From positions 1 to 64,000 of the IMG/VR virus record IMGVR_UViG_3300035704_000001: 64,000 nucleotides of DNA; one strand, 5' to 3'. The notes under the pieces were generated by a model. The model was not told where the DNA came from, searched no databases, and saw nothing but the letters and a program-made list of their open reading frames with translations. The stretch comes from a virus. The position numbers were made by a program, and so were the translations under genes. Each line of letters opens with the position of its first letter. Within the stretch, counting starts at the first letter, position 1. Of the stretch, positions 8,564 to 51,981 are shown in pieces.

Positions 8564-8883
8564 CCATGTGCCGGTGCTTCCGGGCCGAGTGGTGCTACAA
8601 GTCCTACACCTGGTGCGAGCCCGGGCCCGAGCACACCCGGACCGGCATGTCCGCGGCCGAGGGCATCGACGGCGAGGCGCTGATGGTCGGCCGTCCCGTC
8701 CCGGGGCACCTGGGCGCCTGCGCGCACAAGGCGTGCTCGCACGGCATCTTGTGGCACTACCGGCCGAGCGGGACCAGCGCCCGGCCCGGGGCGGCCTGCC
8801 TGGTTCCCGGCTGCCCGTGCCCCGGCCTGCTGCGTCACACCCTCACCCGCCAGGAACTGCGGAACCAAGATCCTGCCTCTTGA
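8560..8883 (+). CDS. Cys/His-rich protein (107 aa)
   Basis: GTGA overlap start. Many Cys and His (MCRCFRAEWC, CAHKACSHG, CLVPGCPCPG), so metal binding is likely. The TGA stop is embedded in the next promoter's TTGACT. Confidence 0.75.
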   Translation: MTMCRCFRAEWCYKSYTWCEPGPEHTRTGMSAAEGIDGEALMVGRPVPGHLGACAHKACSHGILWHYRPSGTSARPGAACLVPGCPCPGLLRHTLTRQELRNQDPAS

Positions 8884-8937
8884 CTCCAGTCAGGTGACCG
8901 CATATGCTGGGGTCACCGACTAAGACAGGGTGAGGCA
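8879..8937 (+). repeat. 59-bp direct repeat, copy 1 (promoter plus leader)
   Basis: Identical over 59 bp to 15121-15179. It covers the whole operator, -10 box and leader down to GGTGAGGCA. Confidence 0.95.
8880..8908 (+). promoter_or_regulatory. TGAC-N4-GTCA operator-promoter
   Basis: TTGACTCCAGTCAGGT, 17-nt spacer, -10 TATGCT. Drives the unit starting with the GTG at 8938. Confidence 0.9.
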
Positions 8938-9336
8938 GTGGACATCGAAGACATCGAGCAGATCCAGGAATGGATGCTCGACCAGGACACCCCGATGGCG
9001 CCGTGGGCGCCTCGCCAGGCGCACGTGTACTACCTGGAGATCGACTACCCGGCCGGCTCGAAGGCCCCGGGCTGGAAACCCGCGTGCTGGGCTGAGCTGC
9101 TGGACCTGGTGCCCAAGGGCGGACAGCGCCGCCAGGCCGCGCGCCGCGGGTTCCGCTGGCCGCGCGAGCGGATGTTCCTGTCCGGCTCGTCCGCCTACCG
9201 CCGCGCGAACCTGCTCACCTGGTGCGGGGCACGGGTCCAGGTGCACCGCTCGTTCCCGGTGCAGTGGCCCTGGGTCCCGGTGCCCGTCGAGTTCGACGCG
9301 ACCGGCATCCCGGTGGCCCGGGAGCTGGCGGCATGA
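8938..9336 (+). CDS. hypothetical protein (132 aa)
   Basis: GTG start directly after GGTGAGGCA. Acidic N-terminus, Trp/Pro-rich C-terminus (VQWPWVPVPVEFD). Unknown function. Confidence 0.8.
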   Translation: MDIEDIEQIQEWMLDQDTPMAPWAPRQAHVYYLEIDYPAGSKAPGWKPACWAELLDLVPKGGQRRQAARRGFRWPRERMFLSGSSAYRRANLLTWCGARVQVHRSFPVQWPWVPVPVEFDATGIPVARELAA

Positions 9337-13490: not shown

Positions 13491-14756
13491 GTGACTCTGA
13501 GTGCTGATCTTCCCTATGAAGCGCTCTATGTCGAGCACGAGCCGGCCGCACGCCGTCTCGCGCTGTCGCTGGTACCGCCGCACGCGGCGGACGACGTGGT
13601 GGCCGAGGCGTTCGCCCGGGTGCTGGACACCGCCGGGCGCAACGGGCCGCCGGCCGCCTTCCGTCCCTACCTGATGGCCGCGGTGCGCAACGTCGCGCGC
13701 ACCTACCACGCCCGCGGCGCCCGGTTCGTGCCGGTGCCGGCTCCCGAGCCGCCGCCGGTAACCGGCCCGCTGCGGGCCCTGGTCGAGCGGGACGACGCCC
13801 GGCTGGCCGCGCAGGCGTTCGCCGCGCTGCCCGAGCGGTGGCAGCGGGTGCTGTGGGCCACCGCGGTGGAGGAGATCACCGTGGCCGCGCTGGCCGGCCG
13901 GTGGGGCATGACCGCCAACTCCGTCTCCCAGCTGGCCAGCCGGGCCCGCGAGGGACTGCGCCAGGCGTACCTCAACGCGCACCTGTCCTCGGTCATGCCG
14001 GCCGGGTGCCGCGCGGTGGCGAAGTACATGGGCGCGTCCGTCCGGGGCCGGGCCGCCCGGCGCCACCAGGCCGAGCTGGCGGCCCACCTGTCCGGCTGTG
14101 CCCGGTGCCGCCAGGCGCACGAGGGCCTGGCCGCGATGAACCATCATCTCGGGGGGCTGATCGGGCCGGGCGCCGCGGGCGCGGGCCTGCTGGCGCACGT
14201 GCTGCCGGCCGCGCGGGCCGCCGGGCGCTGGCACCTGCACCCGCTGGCCCTGGCTGCCGCCGCCTCGGCCGTCGCGGTCAGCGGGCTGGTAGCGGTCCCC
14301 TACGTCACGCATACTGGGGGGCCGGCACCGGCCCGGGCGCGGGCTGTCGTGTCATCTCCCGGTCATGACCGGGCCCGCGTCACCGCGAGCGCTCCTCCTG
14401 TCAGCGCCGCGCGAGGCCGCCCGAGCGCGGACGTGGCGGGAGTCCCTGCCCCCGCCACGTCCGCCGGGACCAGCACCGCGGTGCCTGCCGCCACGTCCGG
14501 CACCGCGGCCCCGTCCGGCACCGCGCCCGCCCCGTCCGGCCGGGAGGGCTCCGGCTCCGGCGGACCGGTGCAGCAGGTGCTCTCGGGCTCGGGACCGGCA
14601 ACCCGGCAGGTGCACCGCGACGTCCGCGCGGCAGCTAGCGCTGTAGCCGGGACGGGAGCCCAGGCCGGCGGCGTCGTGCAGGCCGTGGGCGGGACGGCGG
14701 GCCAGGTCGTGCAGCAGGTGACCGGGGCCGCCGGCGGGCTCCTGGGCGGGCTGTGA
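13491..14756 (+). CDS. ECF-type sigma factor fused to zinc-finger anti-sigma and membrane domains
   Basis: 421 aa, GTG start. Residues 10-75 resemble sigma region 2 and 105-160 sigma region 4 (LPERWQRVLWATAVEEITVA, then an HTH). A zf-HC2-type anti-sigma signature H199-x3-C203-x2-C206 follows, then one transmembrane helix (251-270) and a long Ala/Pro/Thr/Ser-rich outer part. This fused layout is known from actinobacterial chromosomes: a membrane-tethered sigma factor released or altered by an outside signal. It lacks the phage operator-promoter and sits between hairpins, so it looks like an acquired host-type gene. Confidence 0.85.
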   Translation: MTLSADLPYEALYVEHEPAARRLALSLVPPHAADDVVAEAFARVLDTAGRNGPPAAFRPYLMAAVRNVARTYHARGARFVPVPAPEPPPVTGPLRALVERDDARLAAQAFAALPERWQRVLWATAVEEITVAALAGRWGMTANSVSQLASRAREGLRQAYLNAHLSSVMPAGCRAVAKYMGASVRGRAARRHQAELAAHLSGCARCRQAHEGLAAMNHHLGGLIGPGAAGAGLLAHVLPAARAAGRWHLHPLALAAAASAVAVSGLVAVPYVTHTGGPAPARARAVVSSPGHDRARVTASAPPVSAARGRPSADVAGVPAPATSAGTSTAVPAATSGTAAPSGTAPAPSGREGSGSGGPVQQVLSGSGPATRQVHRDVRAAASAVAGTGAQAGGVVQAVGGTAGQVVQQVTGAAGGLLGGL

Positions 14757-15120: not shown

Positions 15121-15179
15121 CTTGACTCCAGTCAGGTGACCGCATATGCTGGGGTCACCGACTAAGACAGGGTGAGGCA
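15121..15179 (+). repeat. 59-bp direct repeat, copy 2 (promoter plus leader)
   Basis: Exact copy of 8879-8937; the downstream genes differ. Confidence 0.95.
15122..15150 (+). promoter_or_regulatory. TGAC-N4-GTCA operator-promoter
   Basis: TTGACTCCAGTCAGGT, 17-nt spacer, -10 TATGCT. Drives the gene at 15182. Confidence 0.9.
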
Positions 15180-15181
15180 AC

Positions 15182-15502
15182 ATGAGCAGTAGCATCAAGA
15201 TCACGTTCGGCCCCGACGACGAAGGCGTGCTCCGGACTGCCTGGGACCCCTGGGCGCAGGCGCACGAGCTGGTCCTGAATATCGGCAACGGCTTGTTCTA
15301 TGCAGGCGACGTCGAAGTGGCGTACGTCAACAAGCGCGAGGTTTCGTTCGGTACGTTCCACATGGGACCTGGCGTAGAGGCCGTCGTGAGTCTGGCCCTG
15401 GAGTTCTGGGCGCAGTTCGGCGGGGCCATGAGTGCACCCCCGGAGCTGGCCGGATTTATCCGGGCCCGGTTCTTACTTGACACAAGTCAGGTAGGGGTAT
15501 AG
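15182..15502 (+). CDS. hypothetical protein (106 aa)
   Basis: ATG after GGTGAGGCAAC. Beta-rich with alternating hydrophobic residues; no family recognised. The last codons, including the stop, are made by the next operator-promoter (15477-15505). Confidence 0.75.
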   Translation: MSSSIKITFGPDDEGVLRTAWDPWAQAHELVLNIGNGLFYAGDVEVAYVNKREVSFGTFHMGPGVEAVVSLALEFWAQFGGAMSAPPELAGFIRARFLLDTSQVGV

Positions 15503-15505
15503 CCT
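15477..15505 (+). promoter_or_regulatory. TGAC-N4-GTCA operator-promoter of the structured RNA
   Basis: TTGACACAAGTCAGGT, 17-nt spacer, -10 TAGCCT (in TATAGCCT). The predicted start is near 15512, followed by 1.37 kb without a credible gene. Confidence 0.85.
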
Positions 15506-15511
15506 GAGGAC

Positions 15512-16884
15512 ACAACAGCACAGCGGAGGCAGGCAGGAAGGGGTCCCGGTACCACGGACGGGGCGCAGGCACCGACTAGCCGCTGCACCTCCGCTTTGCT
15601 GGACAACTCAACAGCGGTACAGGTTCCGGGGAAGGGACTGGGAAAGACCGGGCCGTCAAGATCGGCCGGACACCTCCGCGTAAGTGCCCCCTGTAGAAGC
15701 GCTGACAACGGCGTGGGGGAGATACCCCTTCTCCGGGACCACCCTCCCGCCCCGGCGGGACTCTCAACGGTGAAGGGCACGGCGACCAGCCGGCCCGACG
15801 GGTACCGGGGAGCCTGCGGGGCACCTCGGCCGACCAGGCCGGGCGAAGCTGCCCGCCGGGGCGGGGGGACTTAGACTCCCGGCAGGGAGAGGCGGACGGC
15901 TCCGAAGGTGTAAATGAGTCGGCAGCATGCCCCGGAAGGGGCGGAGCGGGCAGGTACCCGAGGCATCGGCGGCGCCCCGCGCGGAGACCCCGCTTCCCTG
16001 CTGGACAGACTTCCAGGGCTACGTGCAAGCGCAGCTGCGGATCACCCGGTGCGAGCATCAACGCTCTGTTGCGCTCTGATAGCCGCCGGGCCGCACTCGC
16101 GGGCAGGGCACCTGGAGACCGAGCCACCCGGCCGGCCCTGGCGAACGCGTGAGCGAGCTTCGCGCCGCAACACCGCTACGGACCAGGGCGCGGGCCGGGT
16201 GGCCGGTACAAGACTTGCTGGCTGGCGGCATGACGTCCGCGAACCTTCAGCGCCGGAACCCGCTCCGCGGGGCCGGGAACGCGCAGACAGCGGAGACTGG
16301 GCAGGCCGCCGGACAACCCGGGGCACGGATCAGCCGCGGCGCATCGCGCCGAAGGAACCCGCCGGACCGGCGGCCCGCCCGAATAACTGCACAGCTGCCG
16401 CCACTTCGGGAGATCTCCCGGAGGTAGGCTCCCCGGCAACCCGGCCTGTTCGCCGGCCCCGGGAGCGTACCGGGCCTTGGCCGGCCTGGCGGAGGGTGGC
16501 GGGACACGAGCCGCGCCCCTGGGGGTCGGACTCCTTGGGCGGATGCCCCGCCACCCGAAGTAGCGGCAGCTGGCTACTGATAACTCAAGAGCTGGGCAGG
16601 GCGGCATGGTGCTTCGGGGAGAGCCCGGGGACGCCGGCCGGGCTCCGTTTCGTCTTCCGGAGCCCGGTGGGTCATGAAACAAACGTCCTGCTCTTTGGTG
16701 CGTTACAGACACCACGACCGGGCTGGGGTCCTCGCCCGCAGGCACGGGGCGGGGTAATAAGGATGAGGGCTGGGAGGGCGTCGCAATACCTGGCTCTGGC
16801 CGGCTGGCTAAACCAGGCAAACAGCGGCCCGGTACCGCGGGAGCACCGAACACTGACCGTACGATAACGCAGGGAAGGCATGAT
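15512..16884 (+). ncRNA. large structured noncoding RNA candidate (about 1.37 kb)
   Basis: Starts at an operator-promoter and runs to the GGQ-protein gene. Open frames inside lack G/C third-position bias and the phage start context. Helices visible by eye include 15522-15529 with 15588-15595; hairpin 15651-15667; 15745-15760; 15929-15942 with a GGAA (GNRA) loop; palindrome 16407-16420; 16441-16456; a perfect 10-bp stem 16494-16503 with 16547-16556 enclosing more structure; 16621-16645; and 16726-16750. A long-range pairing 15544-15553 with 16831-16842 could close the whole RNA. Size, complexity and phage setting recall the ornate large RNAs (GOLLD, ROOL), but identity is not established. It may be a free RNA, a giant 5' leader, or both. 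Confidence 0.7.
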
Positions 16885-17646
16885 ATGAGCGTCTGGTCAA
16901 CAGCTAACAGCTCACCGACCAAGGACCCGCGCGTGCGCGTCGGGCAGTGGGGCGCCGGCAACTGGCGCACCCTGGTGCGGGACGATGACGACTGGAACGA
17001 GACCGGCCCGCCGTATCCGAGCAAGGCCATCGCCCTGGGCCACGTCGATGACGTGCTGGCCGGCTACTTCGGCGAGCTGCCCAGCCGGGCCCTGCTGGCC
17101 GAGCGGATCGAGCAAGCCGTGGTCATCGCCCGTGATGCTTTCGACGCGGACAGCATCGCGCTTCCGCGGCATGTCATCGTGCGCATGGTCGAGGCGCTGA
17201 CGGGCAGCCGGGAGGCGCTTTACCTGCGCAAGCCGGCGGAGCTGCGCGAGGAAGACCTGGAGGTGTCCACGGTGCGGCCGGAAGCCATCCCGCACGGCAG
17301 CGGCGGCCAGACAGTCGGGCAGTTCGACTCCTACGTCCGCGTCATGCACAGGCCCACCGGCATCGTGGTCGAACGCGATTCCGAGCGCTCGCAGCTGATG
17401 AACAAGTCCGCCGCGCTGGACGAGCTGCGCCGCCAGCTGGTAAGTCAGCCGGCCTACCCGCTGATCACCGTCAGCGTGCTGGGCGACATGTTCGACCCGT
17501 ACGAGCTGCGTACCCGGGTAGCGGCGCAGCTGCGCGCGGGCAGCGTCGAGGAGATGCACGTGGGCCAGTTCACGGACGAGGCCGCGAGCGACGACTACGC
17601 CGCGGTGCTGGCCGTGGCCCGGCGCTGGGTCCGGGTGTACTCATGA
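16885..17646 (+). CDS. RF-1-domain (GGQ) release-factor-like protein
   Basis: 253 aa, ATG after CGCAGGGAAGGCATGAT. Residues 125-185 match the peptidyl-tRNA hydrolysis domain of class I release factors: G-S-GGQ (GGQ at 140-142), then VRVMHRPTGIVVERDSERSQ and the NKSAALDEL helix. The usual Asn after GGQxV is Gly here. No codon-recognition motif (PxT or SPF) is seen, and the 130-residue N-terminus is unfamiliar, so it may act like ArfB/YaeJ or PrfH proteins in ribosome rescue rather than normal termination. First gene after the structured RNA; overlaps the next gene by ATGA. Confidence 0.85.
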   Translation: MSVWSTANSSPTKDPRVRVGQWGAGNWRTLVRDDDDWNETGPPYPSKAIALGHVDDVLAGYFGELPSRALLAERIEQAVVIARDAFDADSIALPRHVIVRMVEALTGSREALYLRKPAELREEDLEVSTVRPEAIPHGSGGQTVGQFDSYVRVMHRPTGIVVERDSERSQLMNKSAALDELRRQLVSQPAYPLITVSVLGDMFDPYELRTRVAAQLRAGSVEEMHVGQFTDEAASDDYAAVLAVARRWVRVYS

Positions 17647-18089
17647 CCGACGCAATGCGCCGCGCGGCCCATCTCCGCATGGTTTTCCTGGCGAAAGACC
17701 ACTGGACCCTGACCCCGCTGGAGATCGCCGACCAGCAGACGTCGATGGCCGACGCGCGCATCGCGCTGAACCTGGCGTGCGGCGTGCCCGTCGAGATGAT
17801 CAGCTCCATGGGCTACGACAACACCGACGAGGCCTATGCCAGCGTGCGGGCCGGCTGGGTGCGTCACGTCGGGCAGTTCGGCCGCGAGCAGATGCCGCCG
17901 CCCTGGCTGCGCGATGACCTCGCCCGGGCGCACGGCCTGTGGATGGAGGCCCGGCCGGACCTGGCCGACGGCGACGACTGGCTGGCCGCCGGCACCGCCG
18001 CGCACCTGGCCGCGTGGCCGGACAAGTGCCCGCGGGTGCTGCGCGGCGGCTGCGGGATCTGCGACCCGGTGACCGAGGAGGACACGTGA
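17643..18089 (+). CDS. hypothetical protein (148 aa)
   Basis: ATGA overlap with the GGQ gene. Helical, with a C-terminal Cys pair (GGCGIC). No family recognised; position suggests coexpression with the GGQ protein. Confidence 0.8.
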   Translation: MTDAMRRAAHLRMVFLAKDHWTLTPLEIADQQTSMADARIALNLACGVPVEMISSMGYDNTDEAYASVRAGWVRHVGQFGREQMPPPWLRDDLARAHGLWMEARPDLADGDDWLAAGTAAHLAAWPDKCPRVLRGGCGICDPVTEEDT

Positions 18090-18526
18090 AAGTGAACGGC
18101 AAGTCAATGCCGGCGCTGCTGTGGGCTCCGTATCAGGAGTTCGGCGCCCCGGACCCGTCGGAAGAGACGTCCAGGGCCCCGGCCGGGCCGGTCACCATCG
18201 GAGCGACCGGCTACCGGGACGATGACGTCATCGTCTACTGGAGCCCGGCTGAGGCGGCCGTGCGCGACGGACTGAGCCAGGCGCCCGGGCAGGTGAACCC
18301 GGCGCTGCTGATCCAGCGGGCCCGGGTGCTCGGCATCGAGCTGGCCCGCGGCAACGTGCTGAAGGTGCGCGGGGCCGGGCACGCCGGGCGCCTCGCCCTG
18401 ACCGTCACCGACCTGACCGTGGACCCGGACGGCTGCCCCGTGCTGCACGTCTCGCCGGCTACTGCCGGGCAGGTGACGGCGCGCGAGGACGAGGCCCGCC
18501 GTGCCGGCGGGCCGGTGCCGCCGTGA
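18086..18526 (+). CDS. hypothetical protein (146 aa)
   Basis: GTGA overlap start. Mixed alpha/beta, no motif recognised. Confidence 0.8.
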   Translation: MKVNGKSMPALLWAPYQEFGAPDPSEETSRAPAGPVTIGATGYRDDDVIVYWSPAEAAVRDGLSQAPGQVNPALLIQRARVLGIELARGNVLKVRGAGHAGRLALTVTDLTVDPDGCPVLHVSPATAGQVTAREDEARRAGGPVPP

Positions 18527-18789
18527 GGGAGCGCATCCGGGCCCGGCTGGCCCGGCACGAGAACCTGTTCGCGCTGCTGTGGTTCGCGCACCTGGTGCGC
18601 AACGAGGACCCGGGGGAGGACCGGCCGGGATGGCTGCGCCGTTCCTGGGTCCGGTGGCAGGCCCGGCGCGCGGTGCGCAGCGACCCCGCTAACTCGGGTA
18701 CGGCCGCGGTGTTCATCCTGGGCGGGACCGGCATCATCCTGCTCATCTTGTGCATGGTCGTGGCCGTCGCATTCCTGTTCAATCCATGA
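18523..18789 (+). CDS. C-terminally membrane-anchored protein (88 aa)
   Basis: GTGA overlap start. A basic, Trp-containing N-terminal 58 residues are followed by one hydrophobic helix (about 63-86, AVFILGGTGIILLILCMVVA), a tail-anchored layout with the soluble part inside. Confidence 0.75.
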   Translation: MRERIRARLARHENLFALLWFAHLVRNEDPGEDRPGWLRRSWVRWQARRAVRSDPANSGTAAVFILGGTGIILLILCMVVAVAFLFNP

Positions 18790-19649
18790 GCCAGCCGGCC
18801 AGCTGCCCCAACGCACACGCCCCGAAGTTCTACCTGGGCACGCACAAGCCGCACTGGCTCTGGACCCCGGGCATGGGCGAGACCGGGCTGACCGAGGACA
18901 TCCCGCTGTTCGTCAGCTACCGCCGTCTGCTGGACAAGGCCACCTGGAAGCCGGCCGTGCGGGACTGGGCGCTGGACTCCGGCGGGTTCTCCGAGCTGGT
19001 GCGCAACCCGCGGTGGACGACCGGGCCACGCGAGTACTGCGAGGCCGTGGCCCGCGCGCAGCGCGAGATCGGCCGGATGGCCTGGGCCGCGCCGCAGGAC
19101 TACATGTGCGAGCCGGGGATGATCTCCGGCGGCCAGGTCGGCAAGGTGACCGCGGTGGGCACCGGTCTCTCGGTGGGGATACACCAGCACCTCACCATGA
19201 TGAATTACGTCACGCTGGTCAACCTGTGGCCGGAGTACAGCGACGCGCCGTGCCCGTTCATCCCGGTATTGCAGGGCTGGGCGCTGCACGAGTACATCCG
19301 CTGCGCCGAGCTGTACCGGGCGGCCGGCATCGACCTCACCCAGCTCCCGGTGGTGGGGCTCGGCTCGGTGTGCCGGCGGCAGGATACGTTCCGGATCGGC
19401 TACATCGCCGGCTATTTCGCCGAGAACGGGATCAGGCTGCACGGCTTCGGCGTCAAGGTCGAGGGCCTGGAGCTGTACGGCAGGCACCTGGCCAGCTGTG
19501 ACAGCGCGTCGTGGTCATACGATGCTTACCGGCTGGGCCGGCCGGCGTTCGGCGGGTGCACTCACCAGACCTGCTCCAACTGCCCGCGGTACGCCGCGCA
19601 GTGGTACCGGGACCACGCGCCGCGCGAGGCCCTGGGCCTAGCCTCTTGA
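18786..19649 (+). CDS. dpdA: DpdA-like 7-deazaguanine DNA transglycosylase
   Basis: 287 aa, ATGA overlap start. It resembles the tRNA-guanine transglycosylase fold used by phage DpdA proteins: DSGGF at 64-68 (catalytic Asp), a PVLQGW element (160-165), GLGSV (191-195), a second Asp in SCDSASW (D239), and a Cys cluster C258/C263/C266 in the zinc-site position. Known DpdA enzymes exchange guanine in DNA for a preQ0-type base, protecting phage DNA from restriction. No preQ0 synthesis genes are in this window, so the base would come from the host or from genes elsewhere. The TGA stop lies in the next -35 box. Confidence 0.75.
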   Translation: MSQPASCPNAHAPKFYLGTHKPHWLWTPGMGETGLTEDIPLFVSYRRLLDKATWKPAVRDWALDSGGFSELVRNPRWTTGPREYCEAVARAQREIGRMAWAAPQDYMCEPGMISGGQVGKVTAVGTGLSVGIHQHLTMMNYVTLVNLWPEYSDAPCPFIPVLQGWALHEYIRCAELYRAAGIDLTQLPVVGLGSVCRRQDTFRIGYIAGYFAENGIRLHGFGVKVEGLELYGRHLASCDSASWSYDAYRLGRPAFGGCTHQTCSNCPRYAAQWYRDHAPREALGLAS

Positions 19650-33419: not shown

Positions 33420-33445
33420 CTGAGCAAGAGCCAAGGGACCTCATG

Positions 33446-33480
33446 AGGGCCCGTGTACCTTCCCCGGGTACACGGGCCCT
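33446..33480 (+). terminator. strong intrinsic terminator
   Basis: Perfect 14-bp stem AGGGCCCGTGTACC / GGTACACGGGCCCT with 7-nt loop and TT after it. Confidence 0.9.
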
Positions 33481-33890
33481 TCCGCGTGCCACGGTAGCGC
33501 GTGCGAGCTGTCCAGGGGAGCGGACACGCGGTGATGGGCCCGGGCCAGCTGCGCAGGCCACGGGGCACGCCGGGAGCTGGCCGGGCAGTGATGAGGGATC
33601 ATGGCGGCCCGGGGGTGATAGCCCGCGCACCGCTCCGGCCGCCTGGAACAGTCGGGAGGGCAGCTCCGGGGCAGCTGGCCAGCTGCCCGGGGGCAGGCAT
33701 GGCCGGGCACGCGGGAGGGTACCGGGCACGATGGGCCGGCCGCTGGCACAGCTGGCCGGCCCGCCAGCTGTACGGGGCACCGGGGACGGGGCTGAGCGCC
33801 GCGGAGCGGCCCGGGGCAGGCCAGGACACGCGGCACAGCGCGCCGGGCCGCCCAGCGGCCCGCACAGCAGCGCGCAGCGGGCATGCGGAA
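33481..33890. other. gene-free island with CAGCTG inverted repeats
   Basis: About 410 bp between terminators facing each other, with no credible gene on either strand. It contains five CAGCTG hexamers between 33534 and 33771, including the palindrome GCAGCTGGCCAGCTGC (33671-33686) and a 9-bp hairpin ACAGCTGGC / GCCAGCTGT (33748-33771). Could be an origin, a recombination site or a packaging-related site; nothing in the sequence decides. Confidence 0.6.
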
Positions 33891-33917
33891 GGGCCCGCCC
33901 CCGTGGGGAGCGGGCCC
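33891..33917 (-). terminator. terminator of the leftward operon
   Basis: GGGCCCGC / GCGGGCCC with inner CCCC/GGGG pairing, 15 nt beyond the stop of the leftward 87-aa gene. Confidence 0.75.
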
Positions 33918-33931
33918 TAGGCCTAGCCTGG

Positions 33932-34195: not shown

Positions 34196-34218
34196 TGCCT
34201 TGCCTTCCCTGGTAACCA

Positions 34219-34432: not shown

Positions 34433-34480
34433 GGTGCCTGCCCTGTCTCCCCGCTAGGCCCCGTTGGCCTAGCAAGGCCA

Positions 34481-34509
34481 ACGCTAGTCGCCTACCTGAC
34501 TCAAGTCAA
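34481..34509 (-). promoter_or_regulatory. leftward TGAC-N4-GTCA operator-promoter
   Basis: On the minus strand: TTGACTTGAGTCAGGT, 17-nt spacer, -10 TAGCGT. The only leftward copy, divergent from the promoter at 34578. Confidence 0.85.
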
Positions 34510-34577
34510 TACCTAAGGCCCTACCTGGCAGTGACACTAGTCTCACCTTTCTTTCCTGGCCAGACTGCCCATAGCAC

Positions 34578-34606
34578 TTGACTTGTGTCAGGTAGGCGAC
34601 TAGGCT
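34578..34606 (+). promoter_or_regulatory. TGAC-N4-GTCA operator-promoter
   Basis: TTGACTTGTGTCAGGT, 17-nt spacer, -10 TAGGCT. Last strong copy of the left arm. Confidence 0.9.
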
Positions 34607-34625
34607 TGCCGTTGTACGGCAAGCC
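34603..34625 (+). repeat. inverted repeat at the transcript start
   Basis: GGCTTGCCGT / ACGGCAAGCC, perfect 10-bp arms with 3-nt centre, overlapping the -10 box and start point, comparable to 20850-20880. Confidence 0.8.
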
Positions 34626-38999: not shown

Positions 39000-41900
39000 A
39001 TGCACGGGCTGCCGGACATCAAAGCCGCTGTCAGGCGGCTGCAGGCCCGTCAGCGCGGCTGGGGCCGCGGGCAGGCTTACGCCGGCCAGGTCATCGGGTA
39101 CCGCCGGGACGGGCGGCCCATCCGGCTGGCCTTCGGCGCGGCAGGCCCGGCCGTCGTCCAGACCAAATCCAACTCCGCGACGTCCGGGACCGCGCTCGCG
39201 GTCACCCTGACCTCCACCGGGGCCGGGAACTCGCTGATCGTCTGCGTGGCCACCAACGCGGCGACGTCCGCGAACTTCGCGTCCGGGGTCAAGACCAGCT
39301 CGAACAAGGTGCTGGCTGCCGCGAAGCAGGAGACCGACTCGGCCGGGGCGGCGGCGGAGATCTGGTACGTGGACGGGCTGTCCGCGGGGGACACCTCGGT
39401 CACGATCACCTTCCCGACCGCGCTGTCCCACCAGAACGCGGTCGCGTACGAGGTCTCCGGGCTGGGCGGCGCGGGCGGGTCGCTGGACAAGACCAACGCG
39501 GCGTTCGCTGACGGCGCGTCCCCGACCACCTGGACCTCCGGCGCGACCGGCACGCTCACGCAGGCGTCGGAGTTCGCGGTCGGGTGCTCTTCCCAGGTCG
39601 GCCTGTCGGTCGTGGTCACCCCGCCGTCCAGCCCGTGGACGAACACCTCGATCAGCTCGGCCGGCGGCATCACCGCGGGCGAGCAGGTGGTCAGCGCGAC
39701 CACCAGCCTGACCTACGGCGGCACCAACACCCACTCGGGAACCGGCCACACCGCCACCTGCATCGCCACCTTCAAGGCCTCCACCGCGACCACCACGAAC
39801 GCCACCGTCTCGGCGTCCGGCTCGGGCACCGCCACGGCGGCCGCCCCGCAGAGCCCGGGCGCGGCGGGTTCGGGTTCCGGTACGGTATCCGCGGCCGCGT
39901 CGGTCACTGTGCCGGCCGGCGTGGCCGCATCCGGCTCCGGCGCGGCCTCGCTCGCGGCCGTGACCGGGCCCGGGGTATCCGGCGCGGGTACCGGGGCCGC
40001 GTCCGCGTCCGTCCGGGTTCTTCCGGGAGTCTCCGGAACGGGCGCCGGGGCCGCGTCCGCGGCCGCGTCCGCGGTCATCCCGGGCGGGGTCGCTGCCTCC
40101 GGTGCCGGCACCGGTGCGCTCGCCGTCACCACGAGTCCGGGCGTGGCCGCGTCCGGAACGGGCACGGCATCCGCGGTCCTGGCGGTCCTGCCGGGAGTCT
40201 CGGGCACAGGCACGGGCACGGCCGGCGCCGCCGGGTCGCTCACCGCCGCCGGGGGCGTCTCCGGATCGGGCACCGGCACCGGCTCGGCCGCTGAGGTCAC
40301 CCAGCCCGGGGTGGCTGCGAGCGGCGGCGGCGTGGCATCCGCATCTGCCCAGCAGCTGCCGCAGGTGTCCGGCTCGGGCACCGGAACCGCGAGCGCGGCT
40401 CTTTCCCGGCTCCCGGGCGTGGCCGCATCCGGCGCTGGTACCGTGGCCGTGGCTGCCAGCCTGCAGCCCGGCGTCCCGGCGTCGGGCACGGGTGTCAGCT
40501 CAGCCGCCGCGCCCTCGACACCGGCAGTGGCGGCAAGCGGGCTGGGCGCTGCCGCCGTGGCCGCGCAGGCGCTCGTGCCTGTCGCGGCCGCGGGGTCCGG
40601 CTCCGGTACCGCCAGCCTCGGCCCGGCCCAGGTTCTGGGGGCGGCGGCCTCCGGAACCGGATCGGCCGGCATCGCCCTGGCCCAGCTGCCCGGCGTGGCG
40701 GCCGCGGGCGCCGGCTCGGTGTCCGCGTCTGTCCGTACCGGGCCGGGGGTGTCCGCATCCGGTACCGGGGCGGCCTCGGTGCCCGGGGTGCTCCAGCTCG
40801 CGGTGGTGGCGGGCTCGGGAGCCGGCGTGGCCGCGGCCGGGCTCCAGATCGCCCTGTCCGTGTCCGGCGCGGGATCGGGCTCCGCGTCCGCCGCGGCTGT
40901 CCAGGGCCCGTCAGCGGCCGCCACGGGCTCGGGCACGGCCAGCCTCGGCCTCACGCAGCAGCCGGGGGCCTCCGGCTCCGGCACGGGCACCGCGTCGGCC
41001 GGGCCCCCGGCGGTCACCTCCGGGCTCGGGGTCCTCGCCACGGGCTCGGGGTCGGGCGGCGCCGGCGCGGTCCTGGGGGCGGGGGTCTCCGGGGCCGGCC
41101 TGGGCACCATGTCCGCCGGGGTCACGCAGCGGCCGGCTGTCTCGGCTGCGGGGCTGGGCAGCGCGGCCGCGGCCGCGGCGCAAGACCCCGGGGCGGCCGC
41201 GGCCGGCCAGGGTCAGGCATCGGCCGCCGCCGCTACCGGTCCCGCCATCGCATCCGCGGGCTCAGGCGCGGCTGTGCTCTCCGGTTCCCTCGCCGCACCC
41301 GTTACCGCGTCCGGATCGGGATCGGCTGTCCTGGGGCTCGTACAGGGCCCGGCAGCGGGCGGTGCGGGCACGGGCACCGCGGTGGCCGCCGGCGGGTCGG
41401 CGGTCAGCGCCGGGGTGACGGCCTCCGGTACCGGCGCGGCCATCCTCGCGGCCGTCTCGCTGATCCTGATCACCGACTCCGATTCGTGCCTTGCGAGCGA
41501 GTCCGAGTTCGCCTGGCTGACCGACTCCGACGGGGCGGTGATGGCCGACGGCGGGGAGATCATCGTCATCAGGGACAGAGATTCGTGCGGGATTTCCGAG
41601 CGCGAGCTGACGGCGTGGCCCTCTGACCAGGACTCGTGCACCGCGGACGATGAGGCCATGTCGGCATGGCCGGGAGATTACGACAGGATTTCCGCGGCCG
41701 ACGGCGGGGAGCTGATCACCTTGTCCGGCGGGGCCGAAACGTGCACCGCGACGGACGCCGAGCTGCCCTTGCAGGTGTGGACCTACCCGCCGCTGATCCG
41801 CATCGGCCCAGGTGGGCACTTCGTGGTGCGGTCGCGCGAGGGCCGGGTGGTCGTGACCGGACGGCATGCCGGGGCCGACATCCTGCGGTTCGCGCAGCAG

Positions 41901-42038
41901 CTGTCCGCGGCGGCGGAAACGCTCTGGGTCCTGGATAGCGACGCAGCCCGGATGAGCGAGGCGGAGCAGGTGCCGGACTCGGTGAGCATCGACATCCTGC
42001 CGGCTCTTGATGTCTCCGTACTTGTGTCAGGTGGCTAG
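39000..42038 (+). CDS. tail-fibre-like repeat protein (1012 aa)
   Basis: N-terminal 30 residues are basic and helical; residues about 50-265 form a Ser/Thr/Ala-rich beta domain (VQTKSNSATSGTALAVTLTS onward). Residues about 290-820 are about 28 tandem 18-residue repeats of the type GVAASGTGTASAAVAQLP. Residues about 820-925 hold six or seven Asp/Ser repeats (TDSDSCLASESEFAWL type), followed by a short C-terminal domain. The design (head, low-complexity shaft, tip) suits a phage fibre or adhesion protein; no catalytic motif is seen. Its last codons overlap a degenerate operator. Confidence 0.75.
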   Translation: MHGLPDIKAAVRRLQARQRGWGRGQAYAGQVIGYRRDGRPIRLAFGAAGPAVVQTKSNSATSGTALAVTLTSTGAGNSLIVCVATNAATSANFASGVKTSSNKVLAAAKQETDSAGAAAEIWYVDGLSAGDTSVTITFPTALSHQNAVAYEVSGLGGAGGSLDKTNAAFADGASPTTWTSGATGTLTQASEFAVGCSSQVGLSVVVTPPSSPWTNTSISSAGGITAGEQVVSATTSLTYGGTNTHSGTGHTATCIATFKASTATTTNATVSASGSGTATAAAPQSPGAAGSGSGTVSAAASVTVPAGVAASGSGAASLAAVTGPGVSGAGTGAASASVRVLPGVSGTGAGAASAAASAVIPGGVAASGAGTGALAVTTSPGVAASGTGTASAVLAVLPGVSGTGTGTAGAAGSLTAAGGVSGSGTGTGSAAEVTQPGVAASGGGVASASAQQLPQVSGSGTGTASAALSRLPGVAASGAGTVAVAASLQPGVPASGTGVSSAAAPSTPAVAASGLGAAAVAAQALVPVAAAGSGSGTASLGPAQVLGAAASGTGSAGIALAQLPGVAAAGAGSVSASVRTGPGVSASGTGAASVPGVLQLAVVAGSGAGVAAAGLQIALSVSGAGSGSASAAAVQGPSAAATGSGTASLGLTQQPGASGSGTGTASAGPPAVTSGLGVLATGSGSGGAGAVLGAGVSGAGLGTMSAGVTQRPAVSAAGLGSAAAAAAQDPGAAAAGQGQASAAAATGPAIASAGSGAAVLSGSLAAPVTASGSGSAVLGLVQGPAAGGAGTGTAVAAGGSAVSAGVTASGTGAAILAAVSLILITDSDSCLASESEFAWLTDSDGAVMADGGEIIVIRDRDSCGISERELTAWPSDQDSCTADDEAMSAWPGDYDRISAADGGELITLSGGAETCTATDAELPLQVWTYPPLIRIGPGGHFVVRSREGRVVVTGRHAGADILRFAQQLSAAAETLWVLDSDAARMSEAEQVPDSVSIDILPALDVSVLVSGG
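39870..41465 (+). repeat. about 28 tandem 54-bp coding repeats
   Basis: Imperfect repeats encoding G-V-x-A-S-G-T-G-T-A-S-A-x6-P. Gly at GxG positions is nearly invariant and third bases vary, so selection acts on protein. Confidence 0.85.
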
Positions 42039-50077: not shown

Positions 50078-50279
50078 CGTGCTGGCCGAGGCGCTGGGCT
50101 CGGTCCCGGTGTTCGCCGTCGGGCTGTACCTGTCGCACCGCGGGCTGAAGCGCCACCTGACCCGGGTCACCCGCAAGCAGACCGGGGACATCCGGGTCAT
50201 CACCGATGAGCAGACCAGTGAGCTGGAGCGCCGCCGGGCCGCGGGCGCCGGGCGTAATACAGGGCATGGCCCTTCCTGA
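50061..50279 (+). CDS. small membrane protein (72 aa)
   Basis: GTG start within the previous gene's end. One transmembrane helix (AEALGSVPVFAVGLYL) and a basic, helical tail. Usual partner of the preceding membrane protein in actinophages. Confidence 0.75.
   Translation: MGFWGNVLAEALGSVPVFAVGLYLSHRGLKRHLTRVTRKQTGDIRVITDEQTSELERRRAAGAGRNTGHGPS
50253..50268 (+). promoter_or_regulatory. CGTAnTAAnGGnC-type start element
   Basis: CGTAATACAGGGCATG ends at the start codon of the SNF2 gene. Related elements precede genes at 53409, 57610, 58388, 61916, 62882 and 63608. Confidence 0.55.
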
Positions 50280-51981
50280 CGTTGCCCTGCTGACCCCGGA
50301 CCAGCGGGAGAAGGCCAGCCTGCGGGTCAAGCGGCTGCGCGACATCATCGACTTCCCCGCCCTGGCCTGGTTCAATTCCGAGCCGTGCCCGCGGCACAAG
50401 GCCGACGGCACGCCCTACCCGCTGTGCCGGGAGTGCGGCATCATCCCGCGCCGCCACCAGCGGATCGGCGCGGCCTGGATGTACCTGGCGATGCGCGGGC
50501 TGCTGTCCGACACGGTGGGCTCGGGGAAGACCGCGCAGGCGCTGATGGTGCTGGCGATGTGCAAGCAGAACGGGGAGCTGGGCTACCACAACCGCGCGGT
50601 GATCATCTGCAAGCCGGCCGCGATGCACGACCCGTGGGCCGACTCGCTGCGCCGGCTCACCCCGGACCTGCACGTCATCGTCGCCGACGGCACCCCGGCG
50701 CAGCGCCGCAAGCTGTACGAGGGGGACTGGGAGGTCGCGGTCGTCTCCGAGCGGACCTTCGCCCCGGCCAAGGGCGCCACGACCTCCCGGCCGGGGGACG
50801 TGGACATCCTGGCCGCCCCGTACCGCCAGGTCGGGATTCTGTTCTACGACGACACCGACGCGATGCGGAACCCGTCCTCGCGGACCTGCCGGGCCATCAC
50901 CCGGCTGGCCAAGCGGTGCACCCGGGTGCACGGCATGCACGCCACCCCGCTGCAGAAGCGGCTGATGGAACTGTGGAGCTTCACCGGGCCGGTCGGCGGG
51001 CACGAGAAGAACCGGCTCGGCTCGGAGTCCCGCTGCCACCAGCGCTACGTCACCACCTCCGCCAAGTGGATCACGATGCCGAGCCGGACGGACCGGACCG
51101 GGCGCGATGTCGTCCGGCAGCGGGTGTTCGTGGATTCGGGGATGACCAAGGACCGGGCACGGGTGCTGGAGTTCCGCCGCGCCATCGCGCCGATCGTGCT
51201 CCGCCGCACCGCTGCCGACCTGGACGACGTGGACCTGCCGGACGTGCAGCTCAACCCGGTGTTCCTGGACCTTCACCCGGTTCAGCGGGCCCGGTACGAG
51301 GAGCTGCGCTCGGGGGTGCTGCGGCGCCTCAAGCCCGGCGGCATCGAGGTCACCCGCGCGGTGGCGGCCGCCGCGTTCACCCGCGGGCAGCAGATCTGCG
51401 GCGGGATGGCCGCGCTCGACGAGGGCGAGGGCACCGACATCTCGGTGAAGCTGGACTGGGTGATGGACGCCCTGACCGGCGACCTGGCCGAGGAGAAGGT
51501 GGTCTGCTTCGTCTACCACCGGGGCAACGTCCGGGCGCTGTCCGCGCGGCTGAAGCGGGAGAAGATCGGCCACGTGATCATGTCCTCGGACATGACCGAC
51601 AAGCGGCGCCGGGCCCGCCGCCTGCAGCTGTTCCGCGATGACCCGCGGGCCCGGGTGCTGATCGGCACCACCACCATCGAGGCGAGCCTGAACCTGCAGA
51701 CCGCCCGGCACCTGATCGCGGTGGACACCATCCTGAACCCGGCCCGGATGGAGCAGCTGGTCGGCCGGGTCCGGCGCCAGGGCTCCGCGTTCGGCATGGT
51801 GTTCCTGCACCAGCTGCTGTGCCGGGGTACCCAGGAGGACGGCTACCTGCCGCTGCTGCGGCGCGAGGCCGAGATAGCCGGCGCGGTCTGGGATGAGGCC
51901 ACCGACATCTTCCGCGCGCTCACGCCCCGCCAGATCATGCGCATGATCGCCGAGGGCACGCCCGGGGCGGCGGCGGCCTGA
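50266..51981 (+). CDS. SNF2-family DNA helicase/ATPase
   Basis: 571 aa. Motif I VGSGKT (84-89), motif II is FYDDTD (193-198) in place of DExH, motif III-like GMHATPLQ (223-230), motif V ASLNLQTARHLIAVD and motif VI LVGRVRRQGS in the second RecA lobe. Known phage SNF2 proteins translocate on duplex DNA in replication or recombination. The altered motif II may slow hydrolysis. Opens the DNA-metabolism block. Confidence 0.85.
   Translation: MALPDVALLTPDQREKASLRVKRLRDIIDFPALAWFNSEPCPRHKADGTPYPLCRECGIIPRRHQRIGAAWMYLAMRGLLSDTVGSGKTAQALMVLAMCKQNGELGYHNRAVIICKPAAMHDPWADSLRRLTPDLHVIVADGTPAQRRKLYEGDWEVAVVSERTFAPAKGATTSRPGDVDILAAPYRQVGILFYDDTDAMRNPSSRTCRAITRLAKRCTRVHGMHATPLQKRLMELWSFTGPVGGHEKNRLGSESRCHQRYVTTSAKWITMPSRTDRTGRDVVRQRVFVDSGMTKDRARVLEFRRAIAPIVLRRTAADLDDVDLPDVQLNPVFLDLHPVQRARYEELRSGVLRRLKPGGIEVTRAVAAAAFTRGQQICGGMAALDEGEGTDISVKLDWVMDALTGDLAEEKVVCFVYHRGNVRALSARLKREKIGHVIMSSDMTDKRRRARRLQLFRDDPRARVLIGTTTIEASLNLQTARHLIAVDTILNPARMEQLVGRVRRQGSAFGMVFLHQLLCRGTQEDGYLPLLRREAEIAGAVWDEATDIFRALTPRQIMRMIAEGTPGAAAA

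Follow-up and report, generated by a model that had tools for sequence, protein, structure and literature searches.

Introduction

Two phage RNAs of no known function, GOLLD and ROOL, assemble into nanocages in vitro; GOLLD, which exceeds 800 nucleotides (nt) in many of its members, occurs in bacteria and phages and has conserved and variable parts (PMC12286853). Here we describe a further large RNA locus, which lies at positions 15512 to 16884 of the first 64,000 positions of G000, a virus record of 150,822 bases with a guanine plus cytosine (GC) content of 71%. This stretch of 64,000 bases is called the window. The locus very probably represents a real new family of structured actinophage RNAs, apparently undescribed, because five records of related uncultured phages carry a shorter form of the RNA beside the same sigma-factor gene, with compensating changes in its stems. 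The family is best placed within the known kind of large structured phage RNAs, and its regulatory setting is unusual.

Like the new family, GOLLD is a large, elaborately folded phage noncoding RNA, and ROOL is a large structured RNA of phages and prophages whose function is unknown. GOLLD and ROOL often lie near transfer RNA (tRNA) islands, a usual but not obligatory setting. The new family differs from GOLLD in its core, in being operator-controlled, in its place next to a sigma-factor gene, and in the lack of any tRNA gene in the 64-kb window. It differs from ROOL in its setting and in its lengths, which run from 353 to 1,374 nt when the window copy is included. Prophage replication in cluster A mycobacteriophages with parABS requires a noncoding RNA (Wetzel et al. 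2020, PMC7157519). That RNA, too, is an actinophage noncoding RNA and measures a few hundred nt, but it adjoins parABS and is expressed in the prophage, whereas no ParA was found here and the promoter is of operator type. The staphylococcal RNAs RNAIII and RsaE use C-rich loops against Shine-Dalgarno sites. Their likeness is to the relatives of the window RNA only, which have a conserved pyrimidine-rich loop complementary to many messenger RNA (mRNA) leaders. There is no homology, the putative targets are the phage's own operator-controlled genes, and the loop, which the window copy lacks, belongs to the terminator-like hairpin of a far larger RNA.

A preliminary description of the window, made from its letters, had been unable to assign this RNA to a known class, and comparison with Rfam agrees with this. 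No model reached its gathering score in the window, where region 15200-17200 gave only two weak chance matches (E 9.7), and nothing came near a gathering score in the five relatives (to E 1). The GOLLD covariance model had no match in the window (to E 10) or in the five relatives (to E 1), and ROOL had none at E<=10 in 15200-17200 or at E<=1 in the relatives. OLE, group I and II introns, RNase P, transfer-messenger RNA (tmRNA) and the other Rfam classes likewise gave no Rfam match or ARAGORN tmRNA call. The resemblance to GOLLD and ROOL that had been suggested is one of kind, that of a large structured phage RNA, and does not extend to a model match.

A family of six loci

In six records the locus follows a sigma-factor gene, starts at an operator-promoter, and contains a common core, covarying helices and linkers, with no conserved reading frame. 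The five relatives (G001, G002, G004, G005 and G006) are IMG/VR phage contigs of ~125-152 kb. Records G001 to G005 were found independently of the RNA sequence, because the bait was a helicase encoded at window positions 50266-51981, ~35 kb from the RNA. With the window RNA as query, weak matches were obtained in G001, G002, G004 and G005, all at query positions 624-693, and a pattern made from the core revealed one more relative, G006, with 0 matches in the genome collection. The core lies directly 3' of the sigma-factor gene and in the same orientation in all five relatives; in the window a small gene (15182-15502) sits between the two. Neither the sigma gene nor the core was found in the helicase relative G003, a record that may be a fragment.

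No nucleotide match was found among cultured phages (INPHARED). The nearest cultured-phage helicase is that of Microbacterium phage Magritte (38%), whose genome does not contain the core, and the RF-1 protein flanking the RNA, used as bait, retrieved 0 homologues. Looser patterns for the core yielded 3 viral and 92 genome matches, none of them close to the core and all judged to be chance; a linker motif lay within ~700 nt of only two, on unrelated sequence that looks coding.

The core is near-invariant in all six records and takes the form CCUGGC-GAAC-GCNUG...CANN'GC-UACG-GACCAGG, enclosing a hairpin that varies in length. Apart from the outermost pair, the only variable pair inside it is N:N', which is G-C in four records, A-U in G002 and C-G in G004, so that pairing is kept. 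When the segments from the window, G002, G004 and G006 are folded independently for minimum energy, they arrive at the same double internal loop. A core covariance model, R1, gives E values of 1e-12 to 1e-14 for the six loci, as it must by construction, since it was built from those six; the result is its silence elsewhere, as nothing else convincing was found in those genomes, G003 included, or in Magritte.

Compensatory base changes, which the preliminary description had put forward as a check, were found in the core pair, in domain C and in a hairpin aligned among three relatives. The outer helix of the core, P1, has pairs changed on both sides within G001, G005 and G006, and in domain C 13 of the 59 alifold pairs are changed on both sides. 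The hairpin downstream of the core, aligned for G001, G005 and G006, is 100% paired, and both partners have changed in six of its eight pairs. Of 500 shuffles, 1 reached the covariation score of the tested structure that contains it; the second helix of that structure was out of register, and only the first was used. Two more helices were fitted by hand.

The linker motif AAYUSNANAG (AAYTSNANAG in DNA) has only three copies in the 64-kb window when both strands are counted, all inside the RNA, and one or two copies in each relative RNA. Eleven of its 26 occurrences in seven genomes lie in ~0.3% of the sequence, counts that are descriptive because the pattern was defined from these RNAs.

Fold energy and coding potential

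The fold energy of the window copy lies below that of dinucleotide shuffles, with z of -3.09 for 15512-16500 and -2.45 for 15950-16884, and in each of these overlapping halves none of 20 shuffles was as low. The corresponding z in four relatives are -2.85, -5.02, -6.35 and -4.13.

Genes in the window are tightly packed and predominantly on the + strand according to our own gene calling. The longest gap without called genes is 15503-16884 (1,382 nt), with a runner-up of 814 nt, which agrees with the earlier account of this region as the longest gene-free stretch. Sizeable open reading frames (ORFs) inside the gap score -0.24 to -0.41 per codon, with GC of ~0.70 at each of the three codon positions, and all 71 called window genes longer than 300 nt score at least 0.04. 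The ORFs thus lack the codon bias of their neighbours, as had been proposed. A frame of 317 amino acids runs through the gap from 15914 to 16867, and no protein frame homologous to the gap ORFs was found in the relatives. Independent tests give strong support to a structured noncoding RNA, and the related phage genomes provide the homologues, base changes and absence of a conserved protein frame for which the preliminary description had called. The features of the locus are collected in Table 1.

Table 1. Predicted features of the RNA locus and its neighbourhood in the window.
Feature	Position	Strand	Basis or remark
Sigma-70 region 2 protein	13491..14756	+	Start uncertain; homologue directly upstream of RNA in 5/5 relatives
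Operator-promoter	15476..15505	+	Operator CTTGACACAAGTCAGG overlaps -35 TTGACA (15477-15482); -10 TAGCCT (15500-15505)
Structured noncoding RNA region	15512..16884	+	Fold z, no coding signal, homologues, covariation; 5' boundary predicted
5' hairpin domain	15522..15595	+	Closed by AGCGGAGG/CCUCCGCU
Linker motif AACUCAACAG, copy 1	15605..15614	+	Pattern count
Long stem CCTCCCGCCCCGGCGGG / CCCGCCGGGGCGGGGGG	15743..15868	+	Paired arms
Outer helix P1 of core	16123-16133 / 16193-16203	+	Different but complementary sequence in relatives
Conserved core	16136..16187	+	CCUGGC-GAAC-GCNUG-A-(variable hairpin)-CA(c)N'GC-UACG-G(a)CCAGG
Linker motif AACUGCACAG, copy 2	16385..16394	+	Pattern count
Domain closed by CAGCTGCCGCCACTTCGGG/CCCGAAGTAGCGGCAGCTG	16392..16572	+	Includes stem 16494-16506/16544-16556
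Linker motif AACUCAAGAG, copy 3	16582..16591	+	Pattern count
Two mutually exclusive hairpins	16621..16667	+	From sequence; attenuator-like layout, putative
Leader box CAGGGAAGGCA of 16885 gene	16870..16884	+	Same as leaders of other operator-controlled genes
RNA region 3' limit	Start codon at 16885 is upper limit	+	3' boundary not placeable from sequence alone
Gene with RF-1 (GGQ) release-factor domain	16885..17646	+	First gene of operon ending with DpdA

Helices of the window copy

The 5' hairpin domain of the window copy matches in position the 5' closing helix GUGAGCGAGGCC/GGCCUCRCUCAC of G001 and G006. A 19-nt stem (16392-16410/16554-16572) is 95% paired. The 10-bp stem at 16494-16503/16547-16556 singled out earlier is real, belongs to an arm pair of 13 nt with 92% pairing, and adjoins the 19-nt stem. 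The long-range closing pair proposed for this RNA, CCCGGTACC at 15545 with GGTACCGCGGG near 16831, is possible but ambiguous, as it competes with 16467-16489/16813-16835. Of the two exclusive hairpins, one pairs GAGCCCGG (16621-16628) with CCGGGCTC (16638-16645), followed by CGTTTCGTCTTC, and the other, preferred by the computed fold, pairs CCGGGCTCCG (16638-16647) with CGGAGCCCGG (16658-16667). The segment GGCGAACGCGTGAG looks like 16S ribosomal RNA and has no match to an Rfam ribosomal RNA.

The operator-promoter and the presumed regulon

The gap opens with TTGACACAAGTCAGG...TAGCCT (15477-15505), with a spacer of 17 and a predicted start near 15512, which upholds the earlier claim that the RNA starts at an operator-promoter. 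The -10 element overlaps the stop codon of the small upstream gene. In the relatives, too, the RNA starts downstream of the sigma-factor gene at a palindromic operator-promoter of the type CTTGACACGAGTCAAG, with at most slight variation; the operator in these phages is mostly a perfect 16-bp palindrome. Only in G005 (L025, 3480-3625) is there a small ORF (MYAGEYYADGDNYY...) with a proper leader between promoter and RNA, which shows that genes can be inserted at the 5' end of the RNA.

The motif TTGACWCAAGTCAGGTR has 25 sites in the window at <=2 mismatches, where 0.16 are expected, mostly on the + strand and ahead of genes. The same operator-promoter motif precedes about 20 window genes, nearly all on the + strand (examples are at 1338, 1981, 4182, 19646, 24919 and 28121), and the genes behind it have a common leader of the form AGGCAACCGAG...GAAGGGCAGGCAC-start. 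These ~20 operator-promoters with their shared leader look like one repressor regulon. Boxes shared by the leaders before the start codon are AAGCAACCGA and CAGGG(C/A)AGGCA. Two operator-promoter-leader cassettes, at 8880-8950 and 15122-15190, are near-identical over more than 50 nt (TTGACTCCAGTCAGGTGACCGCATATGCTGGGGTCACCGACTAAGACAGGGTGAGGCA) and appear to be a recent duplication or a mobile regulatory cassette. At 34473-34614 a divergent operator-promoter pair lies in a 46-nt imperfect inverted repeat, and transcription changes strand there. A separate antisense RNA at 34200/34434 (+) was considered and rejected; the words concerned are leaders of minus-strand genes that are driven by the divergent operator at 34493-34594.

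The 3' end and its loop

The RNAs of the relatives measure 353-925 nt within boundaries of our own setting. The last element of each is a terminator-like hairpin whose stem has at least 11-14 perfect base pairs. A T run follows it in three of the five, and a separate operator-promoter serves the next gene. Between G001, G002, G004/G005 and G006 the stems of these hairpins vary, but the loop is preserved: its 20-23 nt retain GCCUGCC, preceded by GGUU in four of the five. In counts of perfect complements, the mean longest match of the loop to the ribosome-binding leaders of operator-controlled genes is 7.4-10.4 nt, compared with 4.9-5.3 nt for shuffled loops, and the loop beats its shuffles in all five genomes (p 0.006 to <0.0005). 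This test replaced a duplex score with free gaps that compared leaders with entire RNAs and was uninformative in GC-rich sequence.

The window copy has no such 3' hairpin, and its leader complementarity is not above chance. The preliminary description had treated the region as a single RNA of 1.37 kb. For a free RNA this length is a maximum, and otherwise it would be that of a giant leader, because the window copy lacks a terminator and may extend into the gene at 16885; the RNAs of the relatives are shorter and have ends of their own.

Neighbouring features

The operon at 16885-19649 encodes a stand-alone RF-1 (GGQ) domain protein and DpdA (7-deazaguanine DNA modification, E 4e-77), and appears from its distribution to be a lineage-specific block adjoining the RNA. 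A second gene-poor stretch in the window, 33420-33930, has many GC hairpins, such as AGGGCCCGTGTACC/GGTACACGGGCCCT at 33446-33480. Positions 39000-42038 encode a low-complexity protein of 1,012 amino acids with Ala/Gly/Ser/Val repeats of the GSGTGTASA type, which is probably a virion or adhesion protein.

Possible functions

The product of the locus would act as RNA. Because its operator is shared with other phage genes, early synthesis by host RNA polymerase and shut-off by the phage repressor in lysogeny may be expected. The relatives would make a free transcript of 353-925 nt ending in the terminator-like hairpin, and its complementarity to leaders suggests that the conserved loop of ~20 nt could pair as an antisense element with the ribosome-binding leaders of mRNAs that the phage itself makes under operator control. 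Our preferred reading, a tentative one, is that the RNA of the relatives may act in trans as an antisense regulator and so tune how the early regulon is translated, while the core would be a contact for protein or ribosome. In the window phage the RNA may be cut from the transcript of the RF-1/DpdA operon, or may be its giant leader. A fuller scheme is unlikely as a whole: an RNA in a repressor-controlled early regulon whose antisense loop would govern translation of dozens of early mRNAs genome-wide, with the window lineage having lost the loop and rewired the RNA as leader of a release-factor and DNA-modification operon.

Several points weigh against reading the locus as a new RNA family with an antisense loop. 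The family numbers only six sequences, covariation was counted pair by pair and not by a method that takes the tree into account, and the alignment of some helices is manual. Strong conservation leaves the core with a single informative pair, and several core shuffle tests are weak. The window copy is the most divergent member, it shares clear sequence with the relatives only in the core and linkers, and most of its other helices are putative. The antisense loop is absent from it and is thus not a function common to all members.

By analogy with GOLLD and ROOL, which form nanocages (PMC12286853), the RNA might instead be a self-assembling ornate RNA, a homo-oligomeric scaffold or cage in which the antisense loop would be incidental. 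Its size class, modular helices and phage location agree with this, but the RNA matches GOLLD, ROOL and OLE neither in sequence nor by covariance model, the window has no tRNA, and the G002 RNA is only ~353 nt long; we regard a scaffold as rather unlikely. Also doubtful is a giant cis-acting leader of the RF-1/DpdA operon in the window phage, working perhaps through the hairpins at 16621-16667. The interval from the RNA to 16885 yielded no separate promoter or clear terminator, the RNA continues into an ordinary leader box at 16870, and the alternative stems are attenuator-like. Against this, RF-1 and DpdA genes were not found in G001-G005, four of which carry the RNA, and the relatives' RNA has its own terminator-like end before a gene with its own operator-promoter, so that a leader would be at most a lineage-specific addition. 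An RNA-based prophage replication origin, as in the parABS cluster A mycobacteriophages, seems quite improbable. Actinophage noncoding RNAs of several hundred nt are needed for prophage replication there (PMC7157519), but they adjoin parA, and this explanation fits poorly because no AAA_31 (PF13614) ParA was found in the 150.8-kb G000, a record that may be incomplete, in a search whose controls matched 14/14. An operator-type promoter would also be expected to be off in the lysogen, and the RNA lies beside a sigma-factor gene. Coding DNA of a degenerate or unusual type is hardly credible despite the 317-residue frame, and so is structure that arose by chance in GC-rich DNA, which folds easily. 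The GC content is flat across the codon positions, the codon scores are negative, five members fold better than their shuffles, and there are compensatory changes.

Large structured phage RNAs such as GOLLD and ROOL are among the least understood of RNAs, and an unrelated family now joins them. Its promoter is clear, its operator is of repressor type, its genomic neighbour is fixed, and most of its members have a putative antisense loop. With so clear a setting, and with predicted targets that are the phage's own early leaders, its function should be easier to attack than that of GOLLD or ROOL.
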